Shown here piece after piece: positions 44,460-62,536 of a stretch of DNA of 64,000 nt; the stretch's first letter is position 1, and every line of letters begins with the position of its first letter. The DNA is taken from positions 124,001-188,000 of the forward strand of contig NZ_JACXAD010000004.1 of NCBI RefSeq assembly GCF_014699115.1, in the 5' to 3' direction. The notes beneath the pieces were generated by a model. It was given only the letters and a program-made list of their open reading frames with translations. It had not been told where the DNA came from and did no database searches. Both the position numbers and the translations under genes were made by a program. The stretch is from Hymenobacter montanus. Lineage in GTDB: Bacteria > Bacteroidota > Bacteroidia > Cytophagales > Hymenobacteraceae.

Positions 44460-44469
44460 TTTTTAGCGG

Positions 44470-44519
44470 AAAGCAATAAAAAAGCCCCTTAGCACGCTAA
44501 GGGGCTTTTTTATTGCTTT
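44470..44519. terminator. Very strong terminator after rpsJ
   Basis: A perfect 23-bp stem (44470-44492 with 44497-44519) around the 4-base loop CACG; the core is AAAAAAGCCCCTTAG/CTAAGGGGCTTTTTT. It ends the str operon and isolates it from the island. Confidence 0.95.
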
Positions 44520-45298: not shown

Positions 45299-48200
45299 AT
45301 GGAGCATGTTCTACGCTTCACGGCAAGGTATGTCGGCTGGCCAATTTCTTCAGCATTTTCCTCTTTAGAATCGACCACTCGCAGGGAGATTTTAAGGGGC
45401 TTAGTGCCGCAACATATTTATAAGCCTATTAGATTTAAATCCCTGGCCCTTCTTTGGTCCCGGCTATGGCTCGTGCGATGTTTGAGCTGGCTAGGCATGA
45501 TTCTCAGCGTAGGCTTTGGGTCTGGAGTGGTAGGCCAAAACCTGGTGAAGAATGGCACCTTTAGTATTTATCGGGTTAGCAGCGACAATCCAAGCAGTAA
45601 CCCGGACGAAGAGCCGACGAGCTATGAGGCGGCTGGAGTCGACAACTGCCCGACCAACCTCGTTACCCTGCCCCCTGGCTCCGAGCTAGGGTACTTCTCC
45701 AGCAATAGCGTCTACGTGGGGGCTAACCAGCATCCGCAAGATAACGGGATCAGCATACAGTGTGGGATTCGTAGCTACGCAGGTGGAGCGGCACTGCAGC
45801 AGCCTTTTCCTGGCGACTCGCGCTATAACGTACCCGCGTCGGAAACCTGGCTCTACAGCAATGGAAACTCTACCGACGCGGCCTTCACGTTCTGGCAGCA
45901 AACGGTAAATGGCTTGAGCCCTAACACCGCCTACGCCTTCTCGTTATACACCTCTAATGCGATTGCGCCGACCACTTCGTTTGGTGTTAATCCCATCCTG
46001 GAGTTGCAGGTTTCTGATCAGGCGGGCACGGCATTCACTACGTACGCTTCTTTTCAGGTGTGGGAAGACAGCGACCCGCTTAGTGGCCATGAAGGAACCG
46101 ATTTATGGGACCGGCGCCAGGCAATCTTTGCTACCGCCCCCGGCCAGACCAGCGCCGTGCTGCGCGTACAGGATCTGGCCATCGGACCGTATGGTGACGA
46201 CCTGGGCATAGCGGCTATCGGGTTACGAGCCGTCAACAGTATTGCAGGAACAGTGTTTGAAGACCCCAACTACGGGGGGGGGGGCGGACGTCCGCTGAAT
46301 ACGAGCGGTACCACCCCGCTGGGTGGAGCTACTGTGGAGCTGTATAACGCCACTACCGGGGCTTTGATCGGGACCACCACTACCAGTACTACGCCGGGTA
46401 GTATTGGTCAGTACCTGTTCGATACCCTGCCTGCTGGCGATTATATAGTGCGGGTAGTGAGTAGCACGGTGAGTTCGGCCCGGCCCGGTTACGTGGCCGG
46501 GCTGCTGCCAATACAGACCTATAACGGCACTGCGGACCGGGTGGGCGGGGAGGCACCCGAGAAAGCGGACGCGCCGGCCAACACGGGGAGCCAGCGCTTG
46601 AGCGACTTGAACACGCCCACAACCGTGGCCCAGAGCGTGGCCGCCGTGACGGTGGGGGCAACTGGGGCCAGCGGGGTCGATTTCGGCTTCAACTTCTCGA
46701 CCATTGTTAACGCTAACCTCGACGGGCAAGGCTCCTTGCGCCAGTTCATTGCTAACGCCAACGCCTTGGGCGACGAAGCAAGCTTAGTGCAGAGCGGCAC
46801 GCGGCGGACTGCCACCGGGGGCCTGCAGCTGTTGCCGGCGGGTAAGGAAACCAGCATTTTCATGGTACCCAACGGGGGCACCACGGCCGCCGGCACCGTG
46901 CGTCCCGGCTTCCGGCCCTACGATGGTACCGCCCAGGGTGGGCCCAACAGTGGCTTAAATTCCAATGGGTTAGTCGACATTGTTTCGTCCGCGGCCTTTG
47001 CCACCATCAGTAGCCCGAACACGGTGGTGGACGGCACCACCCAAACGGCCAACATCGGGAATACCAATAATGTGGTGCTGGGCACGGGCGGCACCGTAGG
47101 CGTGCAGGATTCGGTGCTGGTGCAGCTCGACGGCCCCGAGGTGCAGCTACGCGGGGCGCGCGTTGGCAATGGGGTGGAGTTCAGCCAAACGGCTACTACC
47201 TCAGCCGTGCGCGGCCTGGCAATTTATGGCTTTAACATCAACGTGTTCGCCTCCGCCGGATTAAACAGCCAACAGGTGCTTATAGAAGGCAACGTGCTGG
47301 GTACACCGGCCACCTCATTCACTGACCCCGGCGCGGGCGTTCGCACGTCGTACAGCAACGTGATGCTGCAGGAGTCGGCCAACGATGTGGTGCGCCAGAA
47401 CCTGATTGGATTTGCTGGCGCGGCAGGGGTCTCGGTTATCACCGGAGGGACCGGGCACGTGGTACGCAACAATGAAATTCGCGGCAACGGTCTGGAGAGC
47501 GCCCGCCATGGCGATGGCATCGAAGTGAACGACCGCTCGGACCGCATAACCATAGTAGGTAACCTTTTTATCAACAACGCTTGCGAAGGAATCGATACGT
47601 TTAATAACGACGACCTCACCTGGGGCGGCAATAACACGTTGCGCAACAACACCGTCAGCAACAATGGTGTGGCTGGGCTCGAAGGTCAGGGCATCCATAT
47701 TTGGAGCAGTAACAACGCTACCACGCTCAACCGCATTACGGGTAACCGCTTTAACGGGGTGTTGGTTGGTACCGGGGCCACGGGCAACGTATTTTCCCAA
47801 AACAGCTTCGCCGCCAACGGTGGCCTGGGCCTGGACCTCGTACCGTTAGGCAACTATCTGGGAGATGGCCCGACGCTCAATGACCTGAACGACACCGACA
47901 CTGGCACCAACAACTTCCTTAACTTCCCGGTGCTGGCTACGGTCACTATAGCGGGGGGCAACCTGATGGTGCGGGGCTTCGCTCGGCCGGGTGCTTTGGT
48001 GGAGCTCTACGCGGCCGCAGTTGACCCGACGGGCTTTGGCGAGGGCCAGACTTATTTGTTCGCCGCCACCGAGGGCTCGGCCCAGGACACTGACAATACT
48101 ACCGGCGCTTACGGGCCAGGAGCCGTCAATGGGCTGGCCCAGGGCCGAGACAACACGAACAAGTTTGCCTTCAGCGTGCCGCTCAGCAGCTTGACGCCCG

Positions 48201-51200
48201 CCCAGCAGGCGGCCGTGACCGCGGCCGGGGCCCGGCTCACGGCCACGGCTACGCTGGGCGGCAACACGAGCGAGTTTGGGGGTAACGTGGCCGTGGGCGC
48301 GCTGCTTACGGGCGTCGTGTTCGAGGACGTAAACTACGGCGGCAGCGCCGGGCGCAGCTTGGCGGCCAGCGCGGGCGTGCCCCGGCCTGGTGCCACCGTC
48401 GAGTTATACGATAACACCGGCACTTTCCTGAGCTCGACGACGACCGACGCCGCGGGGGAGTACAGCTTCAGTGTGCCGGCGGGCACGTACACGGTGCGGG
48501 TGGTGAGCGGCACGGTGAGCAGCAGCCGGCCCGGTTACATAGCCGGGCTGCTGCCGGTGCCGACCTACAACGGCAGCCCGGACCGGGTGGGCGGGGAGGC
48601 ACCCGAGAAAGCGGACGCGCCGGCCAATACGGGGAGCCAGCGCTTGAGCGACTTGAACACGCCCACAACCGTGGCCCAGAGCGTGGCCACCGTGACGGCA
48701 GGGGCGCCCGGAGTTGACTTCGGCTTCAACTTTTCGACCATCGTTAACACTAACGACGCCGGCCAGGGCTCGTTGCGCCAGTTCGTGCTCAACAGCAACG
48801 CCTTGGGCGGTGAGGCAAATTTGGCGCAAAGCGGGTCGTACACCGACCTGGTGACTGGGGCAACGGTACCGTTGCCGACGGGCCAGGAAACCAGCATTTT
48901 TATGATTCCTGATGGCCAGGCTCACCCGGGCCTGCGGGCCGGCGTGGTCAATCAGCTTTCGGCTCAGGGTGTAGCCATTATTCGGCCGGGCAGCACCTTG
49001 CTCCTTACGGGAGCCAACGCGGCGGTAGACGGGCGCACCCAGACGTTCAATATCGGCAACACCAACAACGTAGTGCTGGGTACGGGCGGTACGGTGGGAA
49101 CTAACAATACGCCCATCAGCCAGCTCAATGGGCCCGAGGTGCAGGTGCAGGGCAACGCCAGCGGATTTGCGGGCTTGCAGTCGGGAGCCGGCGCTAGCGC
49201 GACATCCAACGGCTTACTGTTTGCCGGGCTGGCCGTGTATGGTTTCCAGGACGACATCTTGCTCTATGGACAGTCGAACACCGTGACGCAAATGGTAGTG
49301 GGTACGCCCGCTACGGCTTTCACCGACCCCGGCGCCAGCAGCCGCACCCTGCGCAACAACATTGGCGTGACGGGGAGTACCAACCGCTTAGCGCGCGTCG
49401 TGGGCAACCTGATCGGTTACGCGGGCATCGGCGGCGTTTACCTGGATGTCAACTCCAGCGGCTTGGTGGTGACGGGCAACGAAATTATCGGGGCTGGTGC
49501 CGCAACGGACTATGGCGACGCCTTAAGCTTGAACGGAGGCGACGCGACGGTAACCGGAAACTTCGTGCATGATAACAGCGGCCCGTGCTACGACGCCTAC
49601 AGCTCAAATGGTAAAGCGCCGCACATCATCACCGGCAACACATTTCGGGGTAAGGGCTCGGCCGGCAACCCAGCGGCCAACGAATCCATGAACCTGCGGG
49701 TAATGGCATCGGGCAGCGTAGTCCGGGAAAACATCATATCTGGCAGCGTGGGACCCGGCATCCTGATCGGGCCGCAAACCCAGAACGTGGTCATCAGCCG
49801 CAACAGCATGTTTGACAACGGTGGCCTCACCGGTCAGGTGGGCATTGACCTACTAACCGCTACTGATAACCTGGATAAGGGTACTGCGCCGTTCGTGACG
49901 CTCAACGACACGGGCGACGGCGACGCGGGGGCTAACGACCTGCTCAATTACCCGGTCATCACGTCGGCGGCAGTGAGTAACGGCCAGCTGGAACTGCGAG
50001 GATTTGCCCGCCCGGGGGCCCTGATAGAGTTCTTTCATGTGGGTTCCACCGCTAACTCCTCGGGTTTTGGGGAAGGCAAGACCTACCTGGTATCGCAAAC
50101 CGAAGGATCGGCCGACGATACCGACAGCAGTACGGGTGCCTATACAGGCCTGATTAACGGCTTGAACCAAGGCAGTGATAATACAAATAAGTTTAGCTTC
50201 AGCATTCCGCTCGCTACCCTGTCGGCCGCCCAGCAAGCGGCCCTTAATGCGTGCGGCGCTCAGCTCACGGCTACGGCCACCTTGGGCGGTACGTCGGAAT
50301 TTTCAGGCAACGTCACCATTAGCCCAGCTCCGGTTGTCATCCGCGTCACCGACCCGGTACCCGTGTGCGCAGGGGCTACTGTGCGCTTGAGCGCCGGCCC
50401 GCGCCCGGGCTATCTATTTACCTGGTACAACGGTGCAACAATAGTAAATGGAGGTGGTGCCGTGCTCAACGACAGCGTGTTTGTGGCCAGTGTCGCGGGC
50501 TCCTATCAAGTGCAGCTAACGGCCGTGGGCTGCGCTGGCGTCAGCACGACATCGCCGGCCGTTGCCATTACGGTGTTGCCTGCCATCAACCCCGGCAGTA
50601 TTGCCGCCGCCCAAATGCTGTGCGCCGGGGACCAGCCCGCACCATTCACGAGCGTAGCGCCCGCCGATGGCGGCACGGGCACTTTTAGTTATCAGTGGGA
50701 ATCGTCGCCGGACAACACCACCTGGACGGCCATCAGCAGTGCCACGGCCGCCGACTACGCCGCCGGTCCCGTGGCGGCGACCACCTACTTCCGCCGCCAA
50801 GCCATTTCGGGCAGTTGTACGCCAGTAGCATCAAATACCGTGGCGCTTACCGTCTCCCCGGTCCTAACGGCGGGGGCCATTGAAGCCGACCAGACGCTCT
50901 GTGCGGGCACCACGCCTGCTCCGCTCACCAGTACGACCGCGCCAAGCGGGGGCACGGGGACTTATACCTACCAGTGGGAATCGTCGCCGGATAATAGCGC
51001 CTGGACCGCTATCAGCGGCGCGTTGGCGGCGGATTACGCGCCGGCAGCGATTACGAGCACCACGTATTTCCGTCGGCGGGTGACCTCCGGCGCGGGTACC
51101 TGCGCGACGGCTGTTTCCAATGTAGTGACCTTAACTGTTGTGCCCGCCGTCACGGCCAGTACCATCGGCAGCGACCAGACCTTATGTGCCGGCAGCACGC

Positions 51201-54200
51201 CGGATCCGCTCACGAGTGTAGTGGCGGCTACGGGTGGTACCGGAGCCTACGCCTACCAATGGGAATCGTCTTTGGACAATACTACCTGGACGGCCATTGC
51301 CGGAGCCACTGGGGCCACCTACGCGCTGGGACCTTTGACGGCCACCACCTACTTCCGCCAACAAGTCAGTTCTGGCGGCTGCGTGCCAGTGACTTCCAAC
51401 ACCGTCACCCTTAGTGTAACGCCGGGGCTAACGGCGGGCACCATCGGTCGCGACCAAACCCTGTGCGCGGGCGCCACGCCGGAACCGCTCAGCAGCCTGA
51501 CTGCTCCTACCGGGGGCACGGGCACGTATGCCTACCAATGGGAAAGCTCGGCCGATAATACGGCCTGGACGAGCATCGTCGGAGCCACCAGCGCTGACTT
51601 CGCGCCGGGGCCGGTGAGCGCTACGACGTATTTCCGCCGCCAGGTAACTTCCGGTACGGGCAGCTGTGCCATTGTTGCTTCGGCCCCGGTTGTCCTGACA
51701 GTGCTGCCCACCCTGCTGGCTGGTAGCGTGGCTGCCGACCAAACGGTATGCGCGGGCGCAGTTCCAGCCCCGCTTACCGATACGGGTGCTCCGAGTGGGG
51801 GCACGGGTACCTATGCGTATCAGTGGGAATCCTCGCTCGACAACATCACCTGGACGGCCATTGCCGGGGCCACCAATGCCGGCTTTGCGCCTGGTCCACT
51901 TGCCGCTACCACCTACTTCCGTCGGCAGGTGATGTCGGGTACGGGTAGCTGCTCCACTGCTTACGCCAACACGGTCACGATTACCATCCTGCCGAGCCTG
52001 ACGCCTGGTAGCATCGCGGCCGACCAAACGCTGTGCGTTGGCGCCACGCCCGCTCCGTTTACTGGCACGTCGCCAAGTGGGGGCACGGGCACCTACGCTT
52101 ATCAATGGGAGTCATCAGCGGATAACGCTACCTGGACGGCAATTTCCGGTGCCACGGCCGCTGATTATTCGGCTGGACCCGTGTCGGCCACTACCTACTT
52201 CCGGCGGCAAGTAAGCTCCGGCAGTGGTTCCTGTGCGCCTGTTCTCAGCAACATTATAACCATCACCATTAGCCCCGCGCTGGCAGCGGGCCGCATTGCG
52301 GCCGACCAGCAGATTAATAGCGGGACTACGCCCGTGCCGCTCACCAGCACGGCCCCGGCTACGGGGGGCACGGGTTCCTACACCTACCAGTGGGAGTCGT
52401 CCGCAGACAACACGAATTTTACAGCTGTGGTGGGCGCCACCAGCCCAGGCTACGCGCCGGGGGCGCTGACTCAGACCACGTACTATCGTCGGCAGGTGAG
52501 TTCCGGTACGGGCACCTGCGCGACGGCGGTTTCTAACGTGGTCACCATCACCGTGGTCGCTCCCGGTGTGCTGACGGCGGGCAGCATCGCCGCTGACCAA
52601 ACGCTGTGCATTGGGGCCACGCCGGCCCCACTCACCAGCACGGCCCCCGCGGCCGGAGGGACGGGTACCTACGCTTATCAGTGGGAATCCTCGCTGGATA
52701 ACGTGACGTTTACGGCCATTGCCGGTGCTACGAACCCGGACTATGCCCCCGGCCCAGTAAGCCAGACCACGTATTTCCGTCGGCAAGTGACTTCCGGGGC
52801 CGGGGCAGGCAGCACCACTTACACGGCCGCGGTGACCATTACCGTTAGCCCGGCTCTGGTGGCTGGCCGCATTGCCGCTGACCAAACGCTGTGCGCGGGA
52901 GCTACCCCGGCTCCACTCACGAGCACAGCGGCCACCGGAGGCACGGGCACCTACACCTACCAGTGGGAGTCATCATTGGACAACACAAGTTGGACGGCCA
53001 TTAGTGGTGCTACGGCGGCCGATTTCGCTCCTGGCCCGGTAGTGGCCACTACCTATTTCCGCTACCAAGTATCGTCGGGCACCTGTGGGGCAGCCGTTTC
53101 CAATACAGTCGTTCTAACGGTCAGCCCAGGCTTGACAGCGGGCACCGTGGGCAGTGACCAAACACTCTGCGCGGGGACGTTACCGGCTCCCCTCACTAGC
53201 ACGACCGCGCCAAGTGGGGGCACGGGGACGTATGCTTACCAGTGGGAATTATCGACCGATAACAGCACCTGGACGGCGATCAACGGGGCAGTAGCGGCAG
53301 ATTACACGCCTGCGGCAATGACGAGCACCACGTATTTCCGGCGCCAGGTGAGCTCTGGAACAGGTGCCTGCGCGACGGCCACCTCCAACACAGTTACCAT
53401 CACCATTACGCCCGCGCTGGTGGCCGGCCGCATTGCCGCCGACCAGCAGATTAACAGCGGGACTGCGCCCGTGCCACTCACCAGCACGACCCCCGCCACG
53501 GGCGGCACAGGCTCCTACGCCTACCAGTGGGAATCGTCGGTGGACAACGCGACTTTTAGCACCCTAGCTGGCGCAATCAGCCCGGACTATGCGCCGGGAG
53601 CGTTGACTCAGACCACGTATTTCCGGCGTCAGGCAGTCTCTGGCACGGGCGCCTGCGCAACAGCGGTTTCCAACGTGGTCACGATTACGGTGGTCGCTCC
53701 CGGCGTGCTGACGGCGGGCAGCATCGCCGCTGACCAGACATTGTGCATTGGGGCCACGCCGGCCCCACTCACCAGCACGGCCCCCGCGGCCGGGGGCACG
53801 GGTACTTACACGTATCAGTGGGAGTCGTCGCTGGACAACGTGACGTTTACCGCTATTGCCGGTGCTACGAACCCGGACTATGCCCCCGGCCCAGTAAGCC
53901 AGACTACGTATTTCCGTCGGCAAGTAATCTCTGGTACCGGCACGGGCAGCACCGCTTATACGGCCGCGGTGACCATTACCATTAGCCCGGCTCTGGTGGC
54001 TGGCCGCATTGCCGCCGACCAGACCTTGTGCGCAGGAGCTACACCTGCCCCGCTCACCAGTCAAGCCCCGGCTGCCGGAGGCACGGGCACTTACACCTAC
54101 CAGTGGGAGTCGTCGGCAGATAATGCTACCTGGACGGCCATTGGTGGGGCCACAGCGGCTGATTTCGCTCCCGGCGCAGTGGCATCCACCACCTACTTCC

Positions 54201-57200
54201 GCCGTCAGGTATTGTCGGGCACCTGCGCACCAGCTGTTTCCAATACGGTCGTTCTGACGGTCAGCCCAGACTTGACTGCGGGCGCCATCGGCAGTGACCA
54301 AACGCTGTGCGCGGGGACGTCGCCGGCACCGCTCACGAGCACGACGGCGCCGACTGGGGGTACGGGGACCTATGCCTATCAGTGGGAATCATCACTGGAC
54401 AACGCCACTTGGACACTTATTGCGGGAGCAACCAGCTCTGGCTACTCACCCGGTTTGCTTGCTACTACCACCTACTTCCGCCGTCAAGTCTCGTCGGGAG
54501 CGAGCTGTTCGGCCACGTCCAATACCGTAACCATCAGCATTACCCCGGCGCTGGTAGCGGGCGGTATTGCCGCCAACCAACAAATCAACAGCGGCTCCAC
54601 GCCCGCTCCATTCACCAGCACAACTGCCGCCACGGGTGGTACGGGCACTTACGCCTACCAGTGGGAATCGTCGCTGGATAACGTGACGTTTACCGCCATT
54701 GCTGGCGCGACGGTGGCCACATACGCCCCCGGACCACTAACCCAGACCACGTACTATCGTCGGCAGGTAGCTTCTGGCACATGCCTGGCGGCGGTTTCCA
54801 ATGTAGTGACCATTACGGTGGTTGCTCCTGGCGTGCTGACAGCGGGCAGCATCGCGGGGGACCAAACGCTGTGTGCGGGGGCTGCGCCGGCCCCGCTCAC
54901 CAGCACCGCCCCCGCCACGGGGGGCACGGGCACTTACGCTTATCAGTGGGAGTCGTCGCTTGATAACGTGACGTTTACCGCCATTGCCGGCGCCACGAAC
55001 CCAGACTATGCCCCCGGCCCCTTAACGCAGACCACGTATTTCCGCCGGCAAGTAACCTCTGGTACGGGGGCAGGCAGCACGGCCTACACCGCGGCAGTGA
55101 CCATCAACATTAGCCCGGCGCTGGTGGCTGGCCGCATTGCCGCCGACCAGGCCTTATGCGCAGGAGCCACGCCAGCCCCCTTCACCAGTCAGGCACCGGC
55201 CACTGGGGGCACCGGTACCTACACGTACCAGTGGGAGTCGTCGGTAGATAATACAAGTTGGACGGCCATTAGTGGGGCCACAGCGGCGGACTTCGCTTCT
55301 GGCTCGGTAGTAGCTACCACCTACTTCCGCCGCCAGGTATCGTCGGGCACCTGTGCACCAGCCGTTTCCAATACGGTCGTTCTAACAGTCAGCCCAGGCT
55401 TGAGCGCCGGTACTGTGGGTCGTGACCAAAGCCTGTGCGCGGGGGCCTCGCCCGCTCCGCTGACCGGTACGACCGCGCCAAGTGGGGGCACGGGGACGTA
55501 TGCTTACCAGTGGGAATCATCGACGGATAACAGCACCTGGACGGCGATCAACGGGGCAGTGGCGGCGGATTACGCGCCCGCGGCAATGACGAGCACGACG
55601 TATTTCCGTCGGCAGGTGAGCTCTGGCACGGGCAATTGCGCGACGGCCACCTCCAACACGGTTACCATCACCATTACGCCGGCGCTGATAGCGGGCCGCA
55701 TTGCGGCCGATCAGCAGATTAACAGCGGGACTGCGCCCGTGCCGCTCACCAGCACAGCCCCCGCCACGGGCGGCACGGGTACTTATGCCTATCAGTGGGA
55801 ATCGTCACTGGATAATGTGACGTTTACGGCTATTACCGGCGCGACGGCAGCCATGTACGCTCCCGGTACACTAACCCAGACCACCTATTATCGTCGGCAG
55901 GTGACCTCCGGCACGGGCACCTGCGCGAGGGCGGTTTCAAACGCAGTTACCATCACGGTGGTTGCGCCAGGGGTGCTGACGGCGGGCAGCATCGCCGCTG
56001 ACCAAACCATCTGCAGTGGGGCCACGCCGGCCCCACTCACCAGCACGGCCCCCGCCGCCGGGGGCACGGGTACTTACACGTATCAGTGGGAGTCATCGCT
56101 GGACAACGTGACGTTTACCGCCATTGCCGGCGCCACGAACCTGGACTATGCTCCGGGCCTTCTAACGCAGACCACGTATTTCCGCCGGCAAGTAACCTCC
56201 GGTACGGGGGCAGGCAGCACCGCCTACACCGCGGCAGTGACCGTTACCATTAGCCCGGCGCTGGTGGCTGGCCGCATTGCCGCCGACCAGACCTTATGCG
56301 CAGGAGCTACACCTGCCCCGCTCACCAGTCAAGCCCCGGCTGCTGGAGGCACGGGCACTTACACCTACCAGTGGGAGTCGTCGGCAGATAATGCTACCTG
56401 GACGGCCATTAGTGGGGCCACCGGCGTCGATTTCGCTCCCGGCGCAGTGGCATCCACCACCTACTTCCGTCGCCAGGTATCGTCGGGTACTTGTGCACCA
56501 GCCGTTTCCAACACGGTCGTTCTGACGGTTAGCCCAGGCTTGAGCGCTGGCACCGTGGGCAGTGATCAAACGCTGTGCACCGGGGCCTCGCCGGCCCGGC
56601 TCACCGGCACGGCGGCCACGGGCGGCACGGGGACGTATGCTTATCAGTGGGAATCATCGACCGATAACAGCACCTGGACGGCGATCAACGGGGCAGTGGC
56701 AGCAGACTACACACCCGCGGCAATGACGAGCACGACGTATTTCCGGCGGAAAGTGAGCTCTGGCACGGGCAGTTGCACGACGGCTACCTCCAATACGGTT
56801 ACCATTACCATTACGCCGGCGCTGATAGCGGGCCGCATTGCGGCCGACCAGCAGATTAATAGCGGGACTACGCCCGTACCGCTCACCAGTACGGCCCCGG
56901 CTACGGGGGGCACGGGTTCCTACACCTACCAGTGGGAATCGTCCGCAGACAACACGAATTTTACAGCTGTGGTGGGCGCCACCAGCCCAGGCTACGCGCC
57001 GGGGGCGCTGACTCAGACCACGTACTTCCGGCGGCAGGCGGTCTCTGGCACGGGTATCTGCTCGACGGCGGTTTCTAACGTGGTCACTGTTACGGTGGTC
57101 GCTCCCGGCGTGCTGACGGCGGGCAGCATCGGCGCCGACCAAACGCTGTGCATTGGGGCCACGCCGGCCCCACTCACCAGCACGGCCCCCGCGGCCGGAG

Positions 57201-59287
57201 GGACGGGTACCTACACGTATCAGTGGGAATCCTCGCTGGACAACGTGACGTTTACCGCCATTGCCGGCGCCACGAACCTGGACTATGCCCCCGGCCCAGT
57301 AAGCCAGACCACGTATTTCCGTCGGCAAGTAACCTCTGGTACCGGCACGGGCAGCACCGCTTATACGGCCGCGGTGACCATTACCGTTAGCCCGGTTCTG
57401 GTGGCTGGCCGCATTGCTGCTGACCAAACGCTGTGCGCGGGAGCTATACCCGCCCCCTTCACCAGCCAAGCCCCGGCTGCCGGGGGCACGGGCACTTACA
57501 CCTACCAGTGGGAGTCGTCGGCAGATAATGCTACCTGGACGGCTATTAGTGGGGCTACTAGCCCCGGCTACGCGCCGGGCTCGCTGGCGGTGACTACCTA
57601 CTTCCGTCGATTGGTAACGTCCGGCACCGGCCCCTGCGCTACTGCCGCCTCCCAGGTGGTAACCATCAGTGTGCTGCCGGCCGTGGCGGCTGGCACCATT
57701 GGCGCTGACCAGACTTTATGCTCCAACACCACTCCGGCCCCCTTAACCAACATGAGCGGGGCTAGTGGGGGAGGGGGTACGTACTCTTATCAGTGGGAAT
57801 CGTCGTCGGACAATACTACCTGGATGGCTGTCAGTGGTGCTAGCGCAGCCACGTATGCTCCGGGCCCTCTAACCCAGACTACGTATTTCCGGCGCCGGGT
57901 TACGTCGGGTACGGGCGCTTGCGCAACGGCCGTTTCTAACGTAGCCATTCTAACGGTTGCTCCGGCCCAGACGGCCAGCATTGCTCTGGCTACCCCGGCG
58001 CCCCAGTGCGCCGGCTCGGCCCTGACGTTGACGCCGGTACTCACCAATGCCGGCCCTGCGCCCACCTTCCGCTGGTTCGTCAACAACGTGCTGGCGGCTA
58101 CCACCCCAACTTTCACTAGCGCTACACTAGCTAATAACGACCAGGTGCGGGTGGAAATGACACCTACACCGAACGCCTGCATCTCTGGGGTTCCCACGGC
58201 GGTGGTCACCGTCACGATTACGCCAGCCGTGGAGGCGAGCGTAGCCATCCGCGCTCTCGGGGCCGGGGGGCCGGCCTGTGCCGGTACCGTGCTCAGCTTC
58301 GATATCGACCGGGCGACCGGCGCCGGCCCAACTCCTCAGTACCAGTGGCTACTCAATGGCACGGCGGTGCCGGGTAGTACGGGACCAACTTTCTCATCGG
58401 CCACGCTACGCGACAACGACCGGATCCGCTTGCAAATGACGGCCAGCGCCAGCTGTGCCCGCCCCGCCGTGGTAACTTCCAATGAGTTGGTCATTAGCCT
58501 GCGCCCCGACGTTCTGCCTACCCTTAGCATCGTAAGCAGCGGGCCGGCCTGCAAAGGTTCCGCGGCCAGCTTCAGCATTGCGGGCAGCAGCAACTTAGGC
58601 ACCGCCCCAGCCTACCAATGGCGCGTGGACGGCGTTGATGTGCCGGGTGCGCAAGGCGTTACTTTTAGCAGTGCCACGCTGCGCGACGGGCAATTGGTAA
58701 CATTGGCGGTGCGTACTCTCACGGCCACTTGTAGCCAACCGGTTTCTGTGGTTTCGAATGCGGTGCCGGCCACTTTTATTGCGATGGTGGACGTAGAGGC
58801 GGGGCCGGATAAGGAAATTGTCGAAGGCGAGTCAGTGGTACTTGAGGGTACGGCCAACGGTGCTTACCCCGTCGAGTGGTCGCCCGACCGAGACCTTAGC
58901 TTCGTGGGTGGGAATCTGCTCCGGCCGGTAGTCGCACCCAAGAAAACGACTGTGTACACGCTCCGGGCCAATATCAATGGCTGCCAGGATGAAAGCCGCG
59001 TCACGGTGAAAGTGCTGCCAATCATCGGAATCCCGGATGCCTTCAGCCCCAATGGCGACGGCATTAACGACACTTGGGAAATCGACCGCATCGGCAACTT
59101 CCCCGGCAATACCGTGCAGGTGTACAACCGCTGGGGCAGCCAGATTTTCTCCACCACCAACTACGGCCGCACCAATGAGTGGAACGGCACCAGCCAGGGC
59201 CAGGCTATGCCCGTGGGCACTTACTACTACGTGATTACACTGGGCAATGGTAAAACGTACAGCGGTTCATTAACCATTGTTTATTAA
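45299..59287 (+). CDS. Giant T9SS type B surface adhesin with Ig-like repeats
   Basis: 4662 residues. The N-terminus is long before a hydrophobic signal segment ending GVVGQ (near 79). Two copies of an SdrD-B-like domain plus right-handed beta-helix region follow (about 314-1660; each has GSLRQF near the helix start). After one divergent Ig-like domain come 26 Ig-like repeats of about 93 residues (1760-4223), each with GGTGTYAYQWESS and TTYFRRQV-like cores; then three other Ig-like domains and a PKD-like domain. The last 85 residues (AFSPNGDGINDTWEIDRIGN, ending GSLTIVY) are a gliding-motility/CHU_C-type sorting domain. It should be exported by T9SS and act in adhesion or gliding, like SprB. 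A PorP/SprF-like gene follows 31 bases later. It contains a G11 tract (46274-46284). Confidence 0.92.
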   Translation: MEHVLRFTARYVGWPISSAFSSLESTTRREILRGLVPQHIYKPIRFKSLALLWSRLWLVRCLSWLGMILSVGFGSGVVGQNLVKNGTFSIYRVSSDNPSSNPDEEPTSYEAAGVDNCPTNLVTLPPGSELGYFSSNSVYVGANQHPQDNGISIQCGIRSYAGGAALQQPFPGDSRYNVPASETWLYSNGNSTDAAFTFWQQTVNGLSPNTAYAFSLYTSNAIAPTTSFGVNPILELQVSDQAGTAFTTYASFQVWEDSDPLSGHEGTDLWDRRQAIFATAPGQTSAVLRVQDLAIGPYGDDLGIAAIGLRAVNSIAGTVFEDPNYGGGGGRPLNTSGTTPLGGATVELYNATTGALIGTTTTSTTPGSIGQYLFDTLPAGDYIVRVVSSTVSSARPGYVAGLLPIQTYNGTADRVGGEAPEKADAPANTGSQRLSDLNTPTTVAQSVAAVTVGATGASGVDFGFNFSTIVNANLDGQGSLRQFIANANALGDEASLVQSGTRRTATGGLQLLPAGKETSIFMVPNGGTTAAGTVRPGFRPYDGTAQGGPNSGLNSNGLVDIVSSAAFATISSPNTVVDGTTQTANIGNTNNVVLGTGGTVGVQDSVLVQLDGPEVQLRGARVGNGVEFSQTATTSAVRGLAIYGFNINVFASAGLNSQQVLIEGNVLGTPATSFTDPGAGVRTSYSNVMLQESANDVVRQNLIGFAGAAGVSVITGGTGHVVRNNEIRGNGLESARHGDGIEVNDRSDRITIVGNLFINNACEGIDTFNNDDLTWGGNNTLRNNTVSNNGVAGLEGQGIHIWSSNNATTLNRITGNRFNGVLVGTGATGNVFSQNSFAANGGLGLDLVPLGNYLGDGPTLNDLNDTDTGTNNFLNFPVLATVTIAGGNLMVRGFARPGALVELYAAAVDPTGFGEGQTYLFAATEGSAQDTDNTTGAYGPGAVNGLAQGRDNTNKFAFSVPLSSLTPAQQAAVTAAGARLTATATLGGNTSEFGGNVAVGALLTGVVFEDVNYGGSAGRSLAASAGVPRPGATVELYDNTGTFLSSTTTDAAGEYSFSVPAGTYTVRVVSGTVSSSRPGYIAGLLPVPTYNGSPDRVGGEAPEKADAPANTGSQRLSDLNTPTTVAQSVATVTAGAPGVDFGFNFSTIVNTNDAGQGSLRQFVLNSNALGGEANLAQSGSYTDLVTGATVPLPTGQETSIFMIPDGQAHPGLRAGVVNQLSAQGVAIIRPGSTLLLTGANAAVDGRTQTFNIGNTNNVVLGTGGTVGTNNTPISQLNGPEVQVQGNASGFAGLQSGAGASATSNGLLFAGLAVYGFQDDILLYGQSNTVTQMVVGTPATAFTDPGASSRTLRNNIGVTGSTNRLARVVGNLIGYAGIGGVYLDVNSSGLVVTGNEIIGAGAATDYGDALSLNGGDATVTGNFVHDNSGPCYDAYSSNGKAPHIITGNTFRGKGSAGNPAANESMNLRVMASGSVVRENIISGSVGPGILIGPQTQNVVISRNSMFDNGGLTGQVGIDLLTATDNLDKGTAPFVTLNDTGDGDAGANDLLNYPVITSAAVSNGQLELRGFARPGALIEFFHVGSTANSSGFGEGKTYLVSQTEGSADDTDSSTGAYTGLINGLNQGSDNTNKFSFSIPLATLSAAQQAALNACGAQLTATATLGGTSEFSGNVTISPAPVVIRVTDPVPVCAGATVRLSAGPRPGYLFTWYNGATIVNGGGAVLNDSVFVASVAGSYQVQLTAVGCAGVSTTSPAVAITVLPAINPGSIAAAQMLCAGDQPAPFTSVAPADGGTGTFSYQWESSPDNTTWTAISSATAADYAAGPVAATTYFRRQAISGSCTPVASNTVALTVSPVLTAGAIEADQTLCAGTTPAPLTSTTAPSGGTGTYTYQWESSPDNSAWTAISGALAADYAPAAITSTTYFRRRVTSGAGTCATAVSNVVTLTVVPAVTASTIGSDQTLCAGSTPDPLTSVVAATGGTGAYAYQWESSLDNTTWTAIAGATGATYALGPLTATTYFRQQVSSGGCVPVTSNTVTLSVTPGLTAGTIGRDQTLCAGATPEPLSSLTAPTGGTGTYAYQWESSADNTAWTSIVGATSADFAPGPVSATTYFRRQVTSGTGSCAIVASAPVVLTVLPTLLAGSVAADQTVCAGAVPAPLTDTGAPSGGTGTYAYQWESSLDNITWTAIAGATNAGFAPGPLAATTYFRRQVMSGTGSCSTAYANTVTITILPSLTPGSIAADQTLCVGATPAPFTGTSPSGGTGTYAYQWESSADNATWTAISGATAADYSAGPVSATTYFRRQVSSGSGSCAPVLSNIITITISPALAAGRIAADQQINSGTTPVPLTSTAPATGGTGSYTYQWESSADNTNFTAVVGATSPGYAPGALTQTTYYRRQVSSGTGTCATAVSNVVTITVVAPGVLTAGSIAADQTLCIGATPAPLTSTAPAAGGTGTYAYQWESSLDNVTFTAIAGATNPDYAPGPVSQTTYFRRQVTSGAGAGSTTYTAAVTITVSPALVAGRIAADQTLCAGATPAPLTSTAATGGTGTYTYQWESSLDNTSWTAISGATAADFAPGPVVATTYFRYQVSSGTCGAAVSNTVVLTVSPGLTAGTVGSDQTLCAGTLPAPLTSTTAPSGGTGTYAYQWELSTDNSTWTAINGAVAADYTPAAMTSTTYFRRQVSSGTGACATATSNTVTITITPALVAGRIAADQQINSGTAPVPLTSTTPATGGTGSYAYQWESSVDNATFSTLAGAISPDYAPGALTQTTYFRRQAVSGTGACATAVSNVVTITVVAPGVLTAGSIAADQTLCIGATPAPLTSTAPAAGGTGTYTYQWESSLDNVTFTAIAGATNPDYAPGPVSQTTYFRRQVISGTGTGSTAYTAAVTITISPALVAGRIAADQTLCAGATPAPLTSQAPAAGGTGTYTYQWESSADNATWTAIGGATAADFAPGAVASTTYFRRQVLSGTCAPAVSNTVVLTVSPDLTAGAIGSDQTLCAGTSPAPLTSTTAPTGGTGTYAYQWESSLDNATWTLIAGATSSGYSPGLLATTTYFRRQVSSGASCSATSNTVTISITPALVAGGIAANQQINSGSTPAPFTSTTAATGGTGTYAYQWESSLDNVTFTAIAGATVATYAPGPLTQTTYYRRQVASGTCLAAVSNVVTITVVAPGVLTAGSIAGDQTLCAGAAPAPLTSTAPATGGTGTYAYQWESSLDNVTFTAIAGATNPDYAPGPLTQTTYFRRQVTSGTGAGSTAYTAAVTINISPALVAGRIAADQALCAGATPAPFTSQAPATGGTGTYTYQWESSVDNTSWTAISGATAADFASGSVVATTYFRRQVSSGTCAPAVSNTVVLTVSPGLSAGTVGRDQSLCAGASPAPLTGTTAPSGGTGTYAYQWESSTDNSTWTAINGAVAADYAPAAMTSTTYFRRQVSSGTGNCATATSNTVTITITPALIAGRIAADQQINSGTAPVPLTSTAPATGGTGTYAYQWESSLDNVTFTAITGATAAMYAPGTLTQTTYYRRQVTSGTGTCARAVSNAVTITVVAPGVLTAGSIAADQTICSGATPAPLTSTAPAAGGTGTYTYQWESSLDNVTFTAIAGATNLDYAPGLLTQTTYFRRQVTSGTGAGSTAYTAAVTVTISPALVAGRIAADQTLCAGATPAPLTSQAPAAGGTGTYTYQWESSADNATWTAISGATGVDFAPGAVASTTYFRRQVSSGTCAPAVSNTVVLTVSPGLSAGTVGSDQTLCTGASPARLTGTAATGGTGTYAYQWESSTDNSTWTAINGAVAADYTPAAMTSTTYFRRKVSSGTGSCTTATSNTVTITITPALIAGRIAADQQINSGTTPVPLTSTAPATGGTGSYTYQWESSADNTNFTAVVGATSPGYAPGALTQTTYFRRQAVSGTGICSTAVSNVVTVTVVAPGVLTAGSIGADQTLCIGATPAPLTSTAPAAGGTGTYTYQWESSLDNVTFTAIAGATNLDYAPGPVSQTTYFRRQVTSGTGTGSTAYTAAVTITVSPVLVAGRIAADQTLCAGAIPAPFTSQAPAAGGTGTYTYQWESSADNATWTAISGATSPGYAPGSLAVTTYFRRLVTSGTGPCATAASQVVTISVLPAVAAGTIGADQTLCSNTTPAPLTNMSGASGGGGTYSYQWESSSDNTTWMAVSGASAATYAPGPLTQTTYFRRRVTSGTGACATAVSNVAILTVAPAQTASIALATPAPQCAGSALTLTPVLTNAGPAPTFRWFVNNVLAATTPTFTSATLANNDQVRVEMTPTPNACISGVPTAVVTVTITPAVEASVAIRALGAGGPACAGTVLSFDIDRATGAGPTPQYQWLLNGTAVPGSTGPTFSSATLRDNDRIRLQMTASASCARPAVVTSNELVISLRPDVLPTLSIVSSGPACKGSAASFSIAGSSNLGTAPAYQWRVDGVDVPGAQGVTFSSATLRDGQLVTLAVRTLTATCSQPVSVVSNAVPATFIAMVDVEAGPDKEIVEGESVVLEGTANGAYPVEWSPDRDLSFVGGNLLRPVVAPKKTTVYTLRANINGCQDESRVTVKVLPIIGIPDAFSPNGDGINDTWEIDRIGNFPGNTVQVYNRWGSQIFSTTNYGRTNEWNGTSQGQAMPVGTYYYVITLGNGKTYSGSLTIVY
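46235..50340 (+). repeat. Tandem duplication of SdrD-B-like domain plus beta-helix
   Basis: Two units of about 2 kb (near 46235-48295 and 48296-50340) share order and parts at DNA level. The segments 46535-46640 and 48583-48688, which include GACCGGGTGGGCGGGGAGGC, are almost identical, while the helix parts have diverged. Confidence 0.8.
46274..46284 (+). repeat. G11 homopolymer in the adhesin coding sequence
   Basis: It encodes Gly 326-329. With ten G the frame meets TGA within nine codons; with twelve it meets TAA within about 26 codons. Confidence 0.93.
52280..57967 (+). repeat. Higher-order array of five four-domain blocks
   Basis: Ig-like repeats 7-26 follow a fixed order A-B-C-D. Blocks begin at 52280, 53417, 54551, 55685 and 56822, with periods of 1137, 1134, 1134 and 1137 bases and a last block of 1146. 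A units read ADQQINSG, B units end STAYTAAV, C units end APAVSNTVVLTV, D units carry TWTAINGAV. The last block's C and D domains are divergent. Repeats 1-6 (about 50586-52279) do not show this order. Confidence 0.92.
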
Positions 59288-59318
59288 TTAGTTATATGCT
59301 ATACGTCCTCCTTGTGTT

Positions 59319-60290
59319 ATGCAAAATATGAAACATTTTCTATGCCTTGCGCTCGTCTTGCTGGCTTGGGGAGCTGGGCACTCGGCGTCGGCCCAGCAAC
59401 TGGCTCAGCTTAGTCAATACATGAATAATAACTTCCTGATCAACCCAGCGGTAGCCGGCACAGAAGACTTTGTTGATATCAAAGTCAGCAACCGTACCCA
59501 GTGGGTAGGTCTCGAAGGAGCTCCGCGCACCTACTACGCTTCCATCCACACAGCGCTGGCAGAGAAGCGTCGCCGCCGTTCGCTGCGTCAGCGGCGCCGC
59601 ATCTTCAATGCTGTGGGGGGGCTGTTGTACGCCGACGTTACGGGCGCTACCAGCCGCACCGGGGCGTATTTCTCGTATGCGCACAACGTGGCGCTCACGC
59701 CCCGGCTGCGCGTTGGGTTGGGGATGTCGGCCGGGGTGCAGCAGTTTGCCATCGACGGCCAGCAACTGCACTTTCACGAACCGAATCCCAGTTCGGGTTC
59801 GGTGGCCGAATTTGTACCTGACGCCACAGTGGGGGTCTGGCTGTACGGGCCGAGTTTTTACGTGGGCGTCTCGGCCGCCCAGCTTCTGAATTCTTCGCTC
59901 AATGCCTCTTTTCAGCAAGCCGGGGCCGCCTCGCAGGCCAACGGCTTACAGCCGCATTACTTTCTTACCGGCGGCCTGCGTATTCCACTTACGCCCAACT
60001 GGGTGGTGGTGCCTTCAGCCCTAGTCAAGGTTACCTCTACCGCTCCCGCTGCCGTCGACCTTACCTTGCGGGTGCGCTACCTCAAAGTTATTTGGGCCGG
60101 GGCCTCCCTGCGCTTGGGCGATGCCGTCGCCGGCATGGTTGGAGTCAATGTTAGCCCGACCACCAGTCTGACGTATTCTTACGACATGGGCATCTCCAGC
60201 CTCAACCCTTACCACTCGGGCAGCCACGAAGTACTATTGGGGTTCCGCATCAAGCGCAAAATCCGGGTGCGGGATAATCGTTTCTGGTAG
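59319..60290 (+). CDS. PorP/SprF family T9SS-associated outer membrane protein
   Basis: A 323-residue outer-membrane beta-barrel protein. The signal peptide ends SASAQQ. LSQYMNNNFLINPAVAGTED followed by VSNRTQWVG is the family signature; alternating strands follow, with a basic insert (EKRRRRSLRQRRR) near residue 85. In Flavobacterium johnsoniae the related SprF is needed to export SprB, a giant adhesin encoded next to it. The same pairing here, 31 bases after a type B giant, supports a partner role. The ATG at 59328 is an alternative start. Confidence 0.92.
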   Translation: MQNMKHFLCLALVLLAWGAGHSASAQQLAQLSQYMNNNFLINPAVAGTEDFVDIKVSNRTQWVGLEGAPRTYYASIHTALAEKRRRRSLRQRRRIFNAVGGLLYADVTGATSRTGAYFSYAHNVALTPRLRVGLGMSAGVQQFAIDGQQLHFHEPNPSSGSVAEFVPDATVGVWLYGPSFYVGVSAAQLLNSSLNASFQQAGAASQANGLQPHYFLTGGLRIPLTPNWVVVPSALVKVTSTAPAAVDLTLRVRYLKVIWAGASLRLGDAVAGMVGVNVSPTTSLTYSYDMGISSLNPYHSGSHEVLLGFRIKRKIRVRDNRFW

Positions 60291-60450
60291 CCGGGGCCGG
60301 CAGAAAATGCCGCTCATCCAAACCGATTTATTTTCCGTAGGTAGCTCAATTAGTAAGCAGAGCAGTAAGTTTTCGGTGAACGTAGGGTAAAACTCTGCGA
60401 ATCAAAGACTGTTCTTCCTGTTTTATAGGTGATAGTTCTGATAATAGTCG

Positions 60451-60458
60451 TAGCTTTG
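60451..60458 (+). promoter_or_regulatory. Predicted -7 box of the gene at 60493
   Basis: TAGCTTTG fits TAnnTTTG, 34 bases before the ATG. It suggests this gene has its own promoter. Confidence 0.45.
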
Positions 60459-60492
60459 TTTATTAATTATCCTGCTAAATATATTATACGCT

Positions 60493-60942
60493 ATGAGGTT
60501 TATATTCGCCCCCCTCTCCCTTTATGCCCTGTTGACTTTATCCAGCACTGCGTACGGCCAAGCCAGAACCAGCTTCGACCAAAGCACTGCCATCGCTAGC
60601 ACCACCGAAATACCCCGGCCTACCACTACCAGTGCGGAAACGAGAACGCCCGGATCGGCGACCGTACTCCGGGGCACGGTAAAGTGCCCCGAGGGACTGT
60701 TGCCCGGCGCCGTAATCCACGTCAACGGCACGCGCACCTATGTGGTCAGCAATGCCACCGGCGATTTTGAGTTAACCATCCCGGACTCGACTACCAACAT
60801 TGAAGTTACGTGTAGCTTTGCGGGCTTTCGCGACGTCGTGCAGCACCTGCGCGTAAAGGCATCATCCCCCGCCACCATTGTCCTCGATAAAATTACCGAG
60901 CTCCCGCCGCCCGACCGTAGTGCCGAAACCGGTTGGTGGTAA
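60493..60942 (+). CDS. Secreted protein with carboxypeptidase regulatory-like domain
   Basis: A 149-residue protein: signal peptide ending TAYGQ, a Thr/Ser-rich linker, then one regulatory-like domain (LRGTVKCPEGLLPGAVIHVN, then VVSNATGDFELTI) and a tail rich in Pro and Asp ending GWW. It has the same plan as the protein at 1270-1758. It lies between the SprF-like and O-antigen ligase genes. Function unknown; an envelope role is inferred. Confidence 0.65.
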   Translation: MRFIFAPLSLYALLTLSSTAYGQARTSFDQSTAIASTTEIPRPTTTSAETRTPGSATVLRGTVKCPEGLLPGAVIHVNGTRTYVVSNATGDFELTIPDSTTNIEVTCSFAGFRDVVQHLRVKASSPATIVLDKITELPPPDRSAETGWW

Positions 60943-61071
60943 CCATTCCGGGGCGACCCTGCCTCCTTGTAACCAGTCTGCTTTCTCAAGCCGTCGAGCC
61001 CGCTTTTTCGCGGTGCTTGGCGGCTTTGTTTATTTACCTCGTCCTGCCGGCCCTCGTTACGGCCCCTTGCT

Positions 61072-62346
61072 ATGATGTCCTTCCTGACCCTGGACCGCCT
61101 GCACCGGGCCGCTTTTTTCTTTTGCGGCTGCGTCATCGTGGGCATTTTTGTGGCCAACTGGTTTCGGATTCTGCCCAGTATCGGCATGGCCGGCATCGCC
61201 CTGACGGGAATAACCTACGCGGTCGTGTACCGCCGCGTCGCCAACTGGCAGTTGTGGCCGGTGCTCGGCAGCCTGTTGCTGGTATTTCTGCTGCACCTGT
61301 TCCAGGGCTTCAACACCGAGCCGGCTAACCTGGGCGAGTATGGCCGCGACCTGGTACTAGAATTACCGTTTCTGGTGCTCGTACTGGGTTTTTGGCTGTT
61401 GCCGCCTTTGCCCGGCCGTTACCTGCGCGGGCTGTGGCTGCTGCTGATTGGGATGACCCTGCTGGCTGCCCTGGGTGCCACGATCAATTACCTGCTGCAC
61501 GCCCGCGAAATCAACGAAATGTACTTCCGCTCCAAGGTGATGCCCACCGAGCCGGATCACATTCGCTTTAGTCTGCTGATCACCCTGGCCATCGCGGCCG
61601 GTACGTTGCTGCTGGTCCACCGGGCCGTGCCCGCGGGGTGGCGCTCCGGGCTGGTGGCCGTGCTCGTAAGCCTGGCGCTGTTCCTGCACCTGTTGGCGGT
61701 GCGCAGCGGGGAGATGACCTTCTACGCGCTGGGTGGGCTGACCATCCTGTGGCTGGGGTTCCGCAAAAAGCAGTGGAAGCAAGCCGGGGTGGTGGCCCTG
61801 GTGCTGGTGCTGCTGCCGATGTTCAGCTTTCTGGCCTTTCCTACCTTCCGCAACAAGGTTTATAATACCCAGGAGGATGTGGGCAAGGTAAAGCAACGTA
61901 CGAGCTCGGAGGGCAAGAATTATTCCATTGCGGCGCGGGTGTACTCCTACAAAGCCGCGCTGGCCGTTTGGGAAGACAACCGGCTGATTGGAGTGGCGAA
62001 GCCCGACCTGGAAAACGAAATGGCTAAGCGCTACGCCAGGCTCTACCCCGAGATGACGGCCGAATTCTACATTATGCCCCACAACCAGTACCTCTACAAT
62101 CTGGCGGCTTACGGCGTCCTCGGCTTGCTGGTCTTTCTGGTCGGCTTATTCTACCCCGCGTGGTGGGCCCGGCGGAAGCCGGCGCCGCTGCTCCTGGCCC
62201 AGTACGTCAGCGTTGCGCTCTCCTTCCTGGTAGAGTACACGCTGGAGACGCAGATTGGCTTGGCCTTCGTGTTGTTTTTTCTGCTGCTGGCCTTGCAAGG
62301 CTCGCTGCCCGTGGCCGAGGACGACGCGAACTGGCGCCCCGCCTGA
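61072..62346 (+). CDS. O-antigen ligase family membrane protein
   Basis: A 424-residue protein with about ten to twelve membrane segments. A large periplasmic loop (about residues 265-340) holds SIAARVYSYKAALAVWEDN and MPHNQYLYNLAAYGVLGL, matching the RxxxW and HNxYL signatures of O-antigen ligases and polymerases. LAVRSGEMTFYALGG is the usual RSGxL-like site. Family members attach or polymerise O-polysaccharide on lipid A-core at the periplasmic face. Either of two adjacent ATGs (61072, 61075) may start it. It is the last gene of the island. Confidence 0.82.
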   Translation: MMSFLTLDRLHRAAFFFCGCVIVGIFVANWFRILPSIGMAGIALTGITYAVVYRRVANWQLWPVLGSLLLVFLLHLFQGFNTEPANLGEYGRDLVLELPFLVLVLGFWLLPPLPGRYLRGLWLLLIGMTLLAALGATINYLLHAREINEMYFRSKVMPTEPDHIRFSLLITLAIAAGTLLLVHRAVPAGWRSGLVAVLVSLALFLHLLAVRSGEMTFYALGGLTILWLGFRKKQWKQAGVVALVLVLLPMFSFLAFPTFRNKVYNTQEDVGKVKQRTSSEGKNYSIAARVYSYKAALAVWEDNRLIGVAKPDLENEMAKRYARLYPEMTAEFYIMPHNQYLYNLAAYGVLGLLVFLVGLFYPAWWARRKPAPLLLAQYVSVALSFLVEYTLETQIGLAFVLFFLLLALQGSLPVAEDDANWRPA

Positions 62347-62441
62347 AGCCCCTTGGCTTCCGCGCAGTAGGGGAGGTAGGCTGGGGAGAGCTCCCCTTGG
62401 CATAGCTAACCGCCTCACCTAGAAAATATTTCTGGTCCTTG

Positions 62442-62474
62442 TTGGGAATTTCCCCACAATTTCCCTAGCTTTGC
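62442..62474 (+). promoter_or_regulatory. Promoter of the rplC operon
   Basis: TTG (62442-62444), 21 bases, then TAGCTTTGC (62466-62474). It shows that rplC onward is transcribed independently of the str operon. Confidence 0.75.
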
Positions 62475-62485
62475 ACTCCCTTAGC

Positions 62486-62513
62486 GAAAACGGCACTCGG
62501 CCGTTTTCTTTTT
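62486..62513 (+). promoter_or_regulatory. Terminator-like hairpin in the rplC leader
   Basis: GAAAACGGC and GCCGTTTTC form a perfect 9-bp stem with loop ACTCG, directly followed by five T. It lies about 10 bases after the predicted start of transcription and 24 bases before rplC. A candidate attenuator. Confidence 0.6.
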
Positions 62514-62536
62514 GTGTTCATTAATTCATAAATAGA

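Follow-up and report, generated by a model that had tools for sequence, protein, structure and literature searches.

We analyzed a 64,000-nucleotide window of the Hymenobacter montanus genome (contig NZ_JACXAD010000004.1 of assembly GCF_014699115.1, positions 124,001 to 188,000), in which an open reading frame (ORF) at 45299-59287 on the forward strand encodes a giant surface protein of 4662 amino acids without any internal stop. Positions below are those of the window, and all features described lie on the same strand. The protein carries a tandem array of 26 Ig-like domains, 92-97 residues each and with one YQWE[SL]S core per domain, in which four domain types (A, B, C and D) recur in blocks. 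The repeat, the pattern and covariation of the cysteines and their conservation were observed directly. We infer from the sequence that this giant stalk contains an inter-domain disulfide ladder and consists of rods with a hinge at each A|B junction; taken together, the disulfides, the stiffness, the hinge motion and the role in adhesion form a picture that we consider likely.

In the proposed structure, a beta-helix head would be held off the cell by the long stalk of Ig-like domains, and export and anchoring would proceed via the adjoining PorP/SprF-like protein. The cysteine at the end of the first strand (Cys1), near the C-terminal pole of domain n, would pair with the cysteine in the loop before the last strand (Cys2), at the N-terminal pole of domain n+1. 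Each domain would in this way be stapled to the next, forming a ladder, as suggested by covariation, with Cys1652 at the end of the second head module as the first partner. The ladder appears complete in the giant protein save at A|B, where both cysteines are gone and the linker has two extra residues. With one such gap in every block, the stalk would be a chain of stiff B-C-D-A rods linked by hinges. An old cassette holding one staple-free junction would have been amplified to five copies, and the higher-order repeat would multiply rod and hinge together. The meaning of the repeat is probably mechanical, each copy adding a four-domain rod and one joint.

Cysteine pattern across domain junctions

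Cys1 and Cys2 correspond to columns 11 and 76 of the domain alignment. A junction was regarded as stapled when domain n had Cys1 and domain n+1 had Cys2, and as staple-free when both were absent. The C and D domains each carry both cysteines, while A is without Cys1 and B without Cys2 in all five blocks, leaving the A|B junction without the pair in five of five; a relative with only six tandem domains (locus L040) likewise has one staple-free junction. When the 52 cysteines in residues 1652-4562 were assigned, the rule of Cys1 to the next Cys2 paired all of them, whereas pairing within domains left 12 over. Cys1652 (window 50252-50254) belongs to the final part of head module 2, the module that adjoins the stalk; head module 1 has alanine at the corresponding position. 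All 20 listed cysteines of L040 were also paired by the neighbor rule, with four left by the within-domain rule.

A first scan of 40 loci of the genus and the window (42 ORFs, 326 domains) detected 310 domains with both cysteines, seven with Cys2 only (-C), eight with Cys1 only (C-) and one with neither (--), the last bordering a frame break in L075. A Cys2-only domain that had a successor was followed by a Cys1-only domain in 6/6 cases. The same couples were found in other genera, namely in Plebeiobacterium (L157) and in a metagenome-assembled genome of Porphyromonadaceae (L131). The first count used 86 of 92 arrays, the six cysteine-poor ones being left out. Both Cys1(n) and Cys2(n+1) were present at 511 junctions, both absent at eight and mismatched at one, and within domains the corresponding numbers were 627 with both cysteines, 25 mismatched and none with neither.

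Forty later regions (L163-L202) were fetched after the idea of pairing between neighbors had been set down. They gave 32 arrays of at least three domains, or 30 distinct arrays after removal of one cysteine-poor array and of L201, which equals L098 of the first set. The junctions comprised 211 with both cysteines, 13 with neither and two mismatched, and the domains 257, five and 31, respectively. Ten of the 13 staple-free junctions were located in L190, with one each in L194, L195 and L196 of one genus. The run "-C -- -- -- C-" in L190 amounts to four missing rungs in succession, which pairing between neighbors explains, and later couples in the same array are five and four domains apart. The 3780-residue ORF of L190 (genome G413) as a whole shows two rung-free stretches along with these single gaps.

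Pooling all 777 junctions of 116 distinct arrays under one anchor rule resulted in 753 junctions with both cysteines, 21 with neither and three mismatched, indicating that Cys1(n) and Cys2(n+1) are present or absent together. Within the domains of these arrays, the counts were 901 with both, 56 mismatched and five with neither. The pooled counts left out arrays in which less than 30% of the domains had both cysteines (L107, L131, L145, L155, L158, L162 and L172). With the cysteine-poor arrays restored (123 arrays, 816 junctions), 754 junctions had both, 45 neither and 17 a mismatch, and the 1,010 domains comprised 901, 34 and 75 in the same order. L131, although left out as cysteine-poor, holds a "-C C-" couple that speaks for neighbor pairing. 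L107, in which "C-" is followed by "-C", was first considered a counter-example but is not one, as a single-rung ladder would produce this pattern. The outward cysteine was lost more often at the array ends, with "C-" in 9/113 first domains and "-C" in 7/115 last domains compared with 18/734 each inside. This trend may reflect the lack of a partner there, while most end domains keep both cysteines.

Mean-field direct coupling analysis was applied to all 124 arrays, including the cysteine-poor ones and one duplicate (805 junctions, 1106 domains, effective number 630). Cys1(n)-Cys2(n+1) ranked first of 8,649 inter-domain pairs with a score of 6.16, compared with 4.91 for the best intra-domain pair (mean of both copies) and 2.80 for the reverse pair Cys2(n)-Cys1(n+1). 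Most of the other high inter-domain scores joined identical columns and were taken for homogenization. The intra-domain couplings 10-86, 9-87 and 12-89 would bring Cys1 close to where the last strand ends, and so to the junction with the next domain. Cys2 precedes the last strand and would lie at the opposite pole, so that a bond within one domain would have to span the domain, while Cys2 of the next domain would be close by.

The linker VVAPGVL occupies the staple-free junction in every block, at 52553-52573 (A7|B8), 53690-53710 (A11|B12), 54818-54838 (A15|B16), 55958-55978 (A19|B20) and 57095-57115 (A23|B24). The spacing from Cys2 to Cys1 was 30 at these five junctions and in L040, while the median over 722 stapled junctions was 28. 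An AlphaFold model of four domains spanning A|B showed a mean predicted local distance difference test score (pLDDT) of 94.5 and a predicted template modeling score (pTM) of 0.63, compared with 95.3 and 0.73 for four fully stapled domains. The A|B-spanning model had a pLDDT of 85 in the ten-residue block with most of the A|B linker and of 92 in the next block; its two other junctions reached 94-96. The two alignments had 122 of 123 rows in common, and six rows of cysteine-poor arrays were left out of both. Both model results are compatible with more freedom at A|B, but are weak evidence when taken alone. That staple-free junctions generally have a longer linker was also considered and rejected, as the eight others measured had a spacing of 27-28.

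Extent and history of the four-domain repeat

The first-pass annotation had proposed a higher-order repeat in which the same type recurs every fourth domain from domain 7, and this was clearly borne out. At lag 4, domains 7-26 had a mean nucleotide identity of 79.7%; lags 8, 12 and 16 gave 78-80% and all other lags 62-66%. The lag-4 value was attained by none of 20,000 shuffles of the domain order. Identity was 79% within phases and 64% between them. The blocks start at 52283, 53420, 54554, 55688 and 56825, giving steps of 1137, 1134, 1134 and 1137 bases as had been described. A domain tree, the check that the same annotation had named, grouped domains by block position: A (7, 11, 15, 19, 23; support 100/97), B (8, 12, 16, 20, 24; 100/98) and C (9, 13, 17, 21, 25; 96/89) each fell on one side of a branch.

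The extent of the pattern had to be redrawn. Five A-B-C-D blocks with 20 domains had been claimed; A, B and C were found at five of five positions, C25 with its first half only, but D at three of five. Block 1 (A7 B8 C9 D10, 52283-53419), block 3 (A15 B16 C17 D18, 54554-55687) and block 4 (A19 B20 C21 D22, 55688-56824) are complete. In block 2 (A11 B12 C13, 53420-54553), the fourth domain is chimeric. In this domain 14, the likeness to D is confined to the first half (67-83% per 60-column step); it then drops to 48-55% and ends at 65-67%. The D clade in the tree comprised domains 10, 18 and 22 only (98/95), although a D clade including domain 14 was not rejected (p-AU, the p value of the approximately unbiased test, 0.236). 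Block 5 (56825 to approximately 57580) is incomplete: A23 and B24 are followed by only about the first half of a C domain, as domain 25 was C-like over only its first ~180 columns in a sliding comparison. Domain 26 and what remains of domain 25 (57581-57970) lie outside the pattern, domain 26 being 57-67% identical to every other domain. The pattern thus runs from 52,283 to near 57,580 instead of to 57,967, covering 18 domains, 17 of them fully true to type, and half of domain 25. Domains 1-6 (50588-52282), all with Cys1 and Cys2, had been placed outside the pattern, which was only partly right. Domain 2 belongs to the D phase as sister to the D types (83/85), with 75-76% identity to domains 10 and 18 and 70% to domain 22, and resembles D for the greater part of its length (60-90% in each step of the sliding comparison).

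The amplification of a four-domain cassette, as had been suggested, is supported by the tree and by the uniform length of the blocks. It was followed by conversion or further exchange, because identity was flat across lags 4, 8, 12 and 16 and the closest blocks differed from one domain type to the next: for A and B, block 1 was closest to block 5 (92-93%), for C, block 2 to block 4 (94%), and for D, blocks 1, 3 and 4 to each other (84-87%). The median synonymous divergence (Ks) between copies of the same type was 0.85 for A, 0.37 for B, 0.78 for C and 0.46 for D (domains 10, 18 and 22 only), and the nonsynonymous divergence (Ka) was 0.06-0.13. By these values the amplification is old and purifying selection acts on the copies; the shifting relations between blocks show that patchwork exchange came later. 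The blocks were 72-85% identical to each other, with a longest exact match of 30-88 bp depending on the pair. The idea that the protein changes readily in length between strains is weakened by this divergence and was not supported by the sequences, the exact matches remaining as a substrate; the genome collections used here contained one genome per species.

The repeat block was matched in 88 of 120 genomes of the genus (E value of 1e-3 or better), the source genome included, and 29 of 41 other ORFs in the 40 fetched loci had 7-10 domains. Periodicity was examined in 77 arrays (76 distinct) of at least seven domains with 500 shuffles each and a p value per array that is uncorrected for multiple testing. 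The floor value of 0.002 was reached in nine of the 77, with periods of 4 (the giant protein), 5, 5, 3, 3, 3, 3, 2 and 9. Higher-order repeats recur in this domain family, and period 4 occurred only in the giant protein among these nine arrays. The best period of L190 was 9, and two of its staple-free junctions are each succeeded by another, five and four domains further on; L190 is perhaps a second case of a repeat unit carrying its joints. Period-3 repeats were seen in L048 (domains 3-5 and 6-8, with copies up to 100% identical) and in other Hymenobacter arrays. L160 and L141 hold 24 and 30 domains, respectively, all with both cysteines and with a best period of 5, and the copies in L160, up to 99% identical, were perhaps amplified recently.

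Alternative explanations and significance

A plain higher-order repeat, duplicated as a cassette and homogenized by recombination, could account for the phase-specific clades and the mosaic relations between blocks, and periods of 2, 3, 5 and 9 domains in other arrays indicate that such units arise readily. The missing cysteines would then be accidents that hitch-hiked along with no mechanical meaning. Against this stands the double loss, which is matched across the junction and not within a domain in several lineages, and which is constant in all five copies though Ks between A copies reaches 1.3. We regard this explanation as unlikely. That the four types are separate ligand-binding modules, with the block amplified for avidity, is improbable: the types are consistently distinct as the identities within and between phases show, but their most visible marks in A and B are the missing cysteines and the linker, and none of the four reached a Pfam cut-off. 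When single types were compared with the SprB repeat PF13573 (gathering threshold 28), A7 scored 19.8 bits and C9 16.3 with B8 and D10 not listed, and with Ig_7 PF19081 (27.3), C9 scored 18.2 and D10 15.6 with A7 and B8 not listed. The whole protein scored 104.7 bits with PF13573, with no single stretch passing alone. An assembly artefact, in which repeat copies were wrongly joined, could be favored by the length of the repeat and the draft state of the genome (47 contigs, 5.37 Mb); it is nevertheless highly improbable, as the gene is one open frame inside a 288-kb contig and the divergence between blocks and the limit of 88 bp on exact matches speak against it. Extra near-identical copies may have been collapsed in the assembly.

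The bond could also be formed between Cys1 and Cys2 of one domain, with the leftover Cys2 of A and Cys1 of B forming a special disulfide. This was our first idea, and A|B would likewise keep no free thiols, the leftover cysteines being kept in all five copies and in L040. It was abandoned because the whole-array pattern and the coupling scores favored Cys1(n)-Cys2(n+1), and we now hold it to be distinctly improbable. Isolated "--" domains are absent from the cysteine-rich arrays of the pooled count, whose five "--" domains all belong to L190 and lie in runs between -C and C-, and pairing within domains would also leave Cys1652 and Cys4562 without partners. The coupling of Cys1(n)-Cys2(n+1) exceeds both the reverse pair and the within-domain pair. 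This within-domain pair still ranks sixth among the intra-domain couplings (2.41), which is one of several observations that weigh against the inter-domain ladder with its A|B hinge. Mismatches rose to 17/816 junctions in the unfiltered set (75/1,010 for domains), and three junctions in L113, L164 and L186 break the rule. Only 7/116 arrays supplied the staple-free junctions of the pooled set, and L190 by itself accounted for 10 of the 21. The longer linker was found only in the window and L040, the eight other measured junctions having 27-28, with those of L190 at 28 and thus below its own stapled median of 31; "hinge" may therefore not hold elsewhere. The difference in pTM rests on one pair of models made from an alignment without the six cysteine-poor rows. 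Finally, the domains of L040 grouped mostly with each other and not with A-D, so that common descent of the whole A-B-C-D unit was unsupported; full descent of A-D from L040 was not supported by the tree, which joined only domain G6 with domain 26 (89/80).

For the T9SS stalks of Bacteroidota in general, we consider it an even question whether they are Cys1-Cys2 disulfide ladders in which missing rungs are placed joints and rod-plus-hinge modules are multiplied by repeats. If so, stiffness would be written in the cysteine pattern of these stalks, and the rigid and bendable junctions of many uncharacterized ones could be read from sequence. The higher-order repeat would also gain a mechanical reason, with a rod and its joint being copied and not just length. 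Among the titles and the beginnings of abstracts of the papers listed in searches of the open-licence PMC literature, no description of inter-domain disulfides in such stalks or of the present repeat was found, and "disulfide" was absent from the passages of PMC8286594 on fibrillar adhesins.

The protein, its locus and known systems

The C-terminal sorting domain (CHU_C, T9SS type B) at 59027-59278 matched PF13585 with 93.1 bits (cut-off 27) at residues 4577-4660, the very C-terminus, and TIGR04131 with 70.7 bits (cut-off 35). By this domain and its PorP/SprF partner, the giant protein is assigned to the type B surface proteins of the type IX secretion system (T9SS), and the label "adhesin" is reasonable on the same grounds. 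The start was set at the first ATG and the true one may differ; a hydrophobic stretch resembling a signal peptide was seen by eye about 50 codons after it (45299-45560), and the start may lie downstream. The head is a tandem pair of ~660-residue modules, SdrD_B-like with a right-handed beta-helix, at 46310-48295 and 48302-50320, which are 49% identical. Some relatives showed three matches to the head module in one ORF, such as the 3933-residue ORF G106:C15. An Ig_7 domain with two cysteines (50321-50587) between head and array was the only one to reach the PF19081 cut-off, with 27.9 bits (cut-off 27.3). Further Ig/PKD-like domains, split by eye, precede the sorting domain (57971-59026); three contain two cysteines and the last has only Cys4562.

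The gene is followed by a PorP/SprF-family carrier at 59319-60290 (TIGR03519, 229 bits, cut-off 90.55), whose sole cysteine is residue 9 with none in the C-terminal tail, and by a small CarboxypepD_reg-like protein at 60493-60942, the third gene of the cassette. This three-gene cassette is kept in L040, with identities of 55% over 440 columns in the C-terminal region of the giant protein, 64% for the PorP/SprF gene and 48% for the third gene; no gene for L3 was found among the listed ORFs of its 11.9-kb contig. The cassette lies in a stretch of 18,080 bp (44460-62536) between rpsJ (S10) and rplC (L3), which contains the adhesin, PorP/SprF, CarboxypepD_reg-like and Wzy_C genes. The rpsJ-rplC gap was at most 4,049 bp in the other 111 of 112 genomes of the genus having both genes on the same contig and strand, of 120 searched. 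The ~840 bp from a terminator-like hairpin after rpsJ, recognized by eye, to the adhesin start (44460-45298) are low in G+C and contain no ORF of 100 residues.

The type B sorting domain and the PorP/SprF-family partner are shared with SprB of Flavobacterium johnsoniae, and the RemA sequence of this organism (8gl6_D) was the best match in the PDB (E value 1.8e-44 with the profile A2). The RemA repeats have cysteines in like places to the present domains, as judged by eye. The repeats seem to lack an experimental structure; for RemZ, only the C-terminal domain is reported to be well resolved (PMC10994853). SprF is coupled to the gliding track through a Cys-X-Cys tail, as described in passages of PMC12635249. 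This tail is absent from the carrier here, and no Cys-X-Cys was found in the last 40 residues of any of the four PorP/SprF matches in the Hymenobacter genome. Gliding via the SprF track route is therefore not expected.

The best bacterial fold match over four domains was the grappling-hook protein GhpA of Aureispira (PDB 9fls, 9flu, 9g8b and others), with a Foldseek E value of 3.5e-12 for the A|B-spanning model. The stapled model matched 9fls with a VIA Z of 14.7 and a root-mean-square deviation of 5.9 over 324 residues. Its matches to Ig rods ranged over titin I65-I70 (Z 14.8), GhpA fragments (11.8-14.7) and Robo1 Ig1-4 (14.7). No GhpA chain appeared in the sequence searches. As titin and Robo1 score the same, the fold match points to a shared rod-of-Ig arrangement and is no evidence of kinship.

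Periscope proteins are likewise built of tandem folded domains whose number sets the reach. According to the excerpts of PMC9704523, they owe their variation to recombination among repeats whose identity is very high, whereas the present blocks are 72-85% identical with well diverged synonymous sites. RTX (repeats-in-toxin) adhesins such as MpAFP also have a long Ig stalk stiffened at the domain junctions; the stiffening is ascribed to Ca2+ in the linkers in the abstracts of PMC7493085 and PMC4083281, in contrast to the predicted inter-domain disulfides with regular gaps here. The giant adhesin of Mobiluncus mulieris, with 51 cross-linked Ig domains, is likewise a giant Ig stalk with covalent cross-links. 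These are located within domains in the account given in part of PMC10619420, unlike the inter-domain staples proposed for the stalk of H. montanus.

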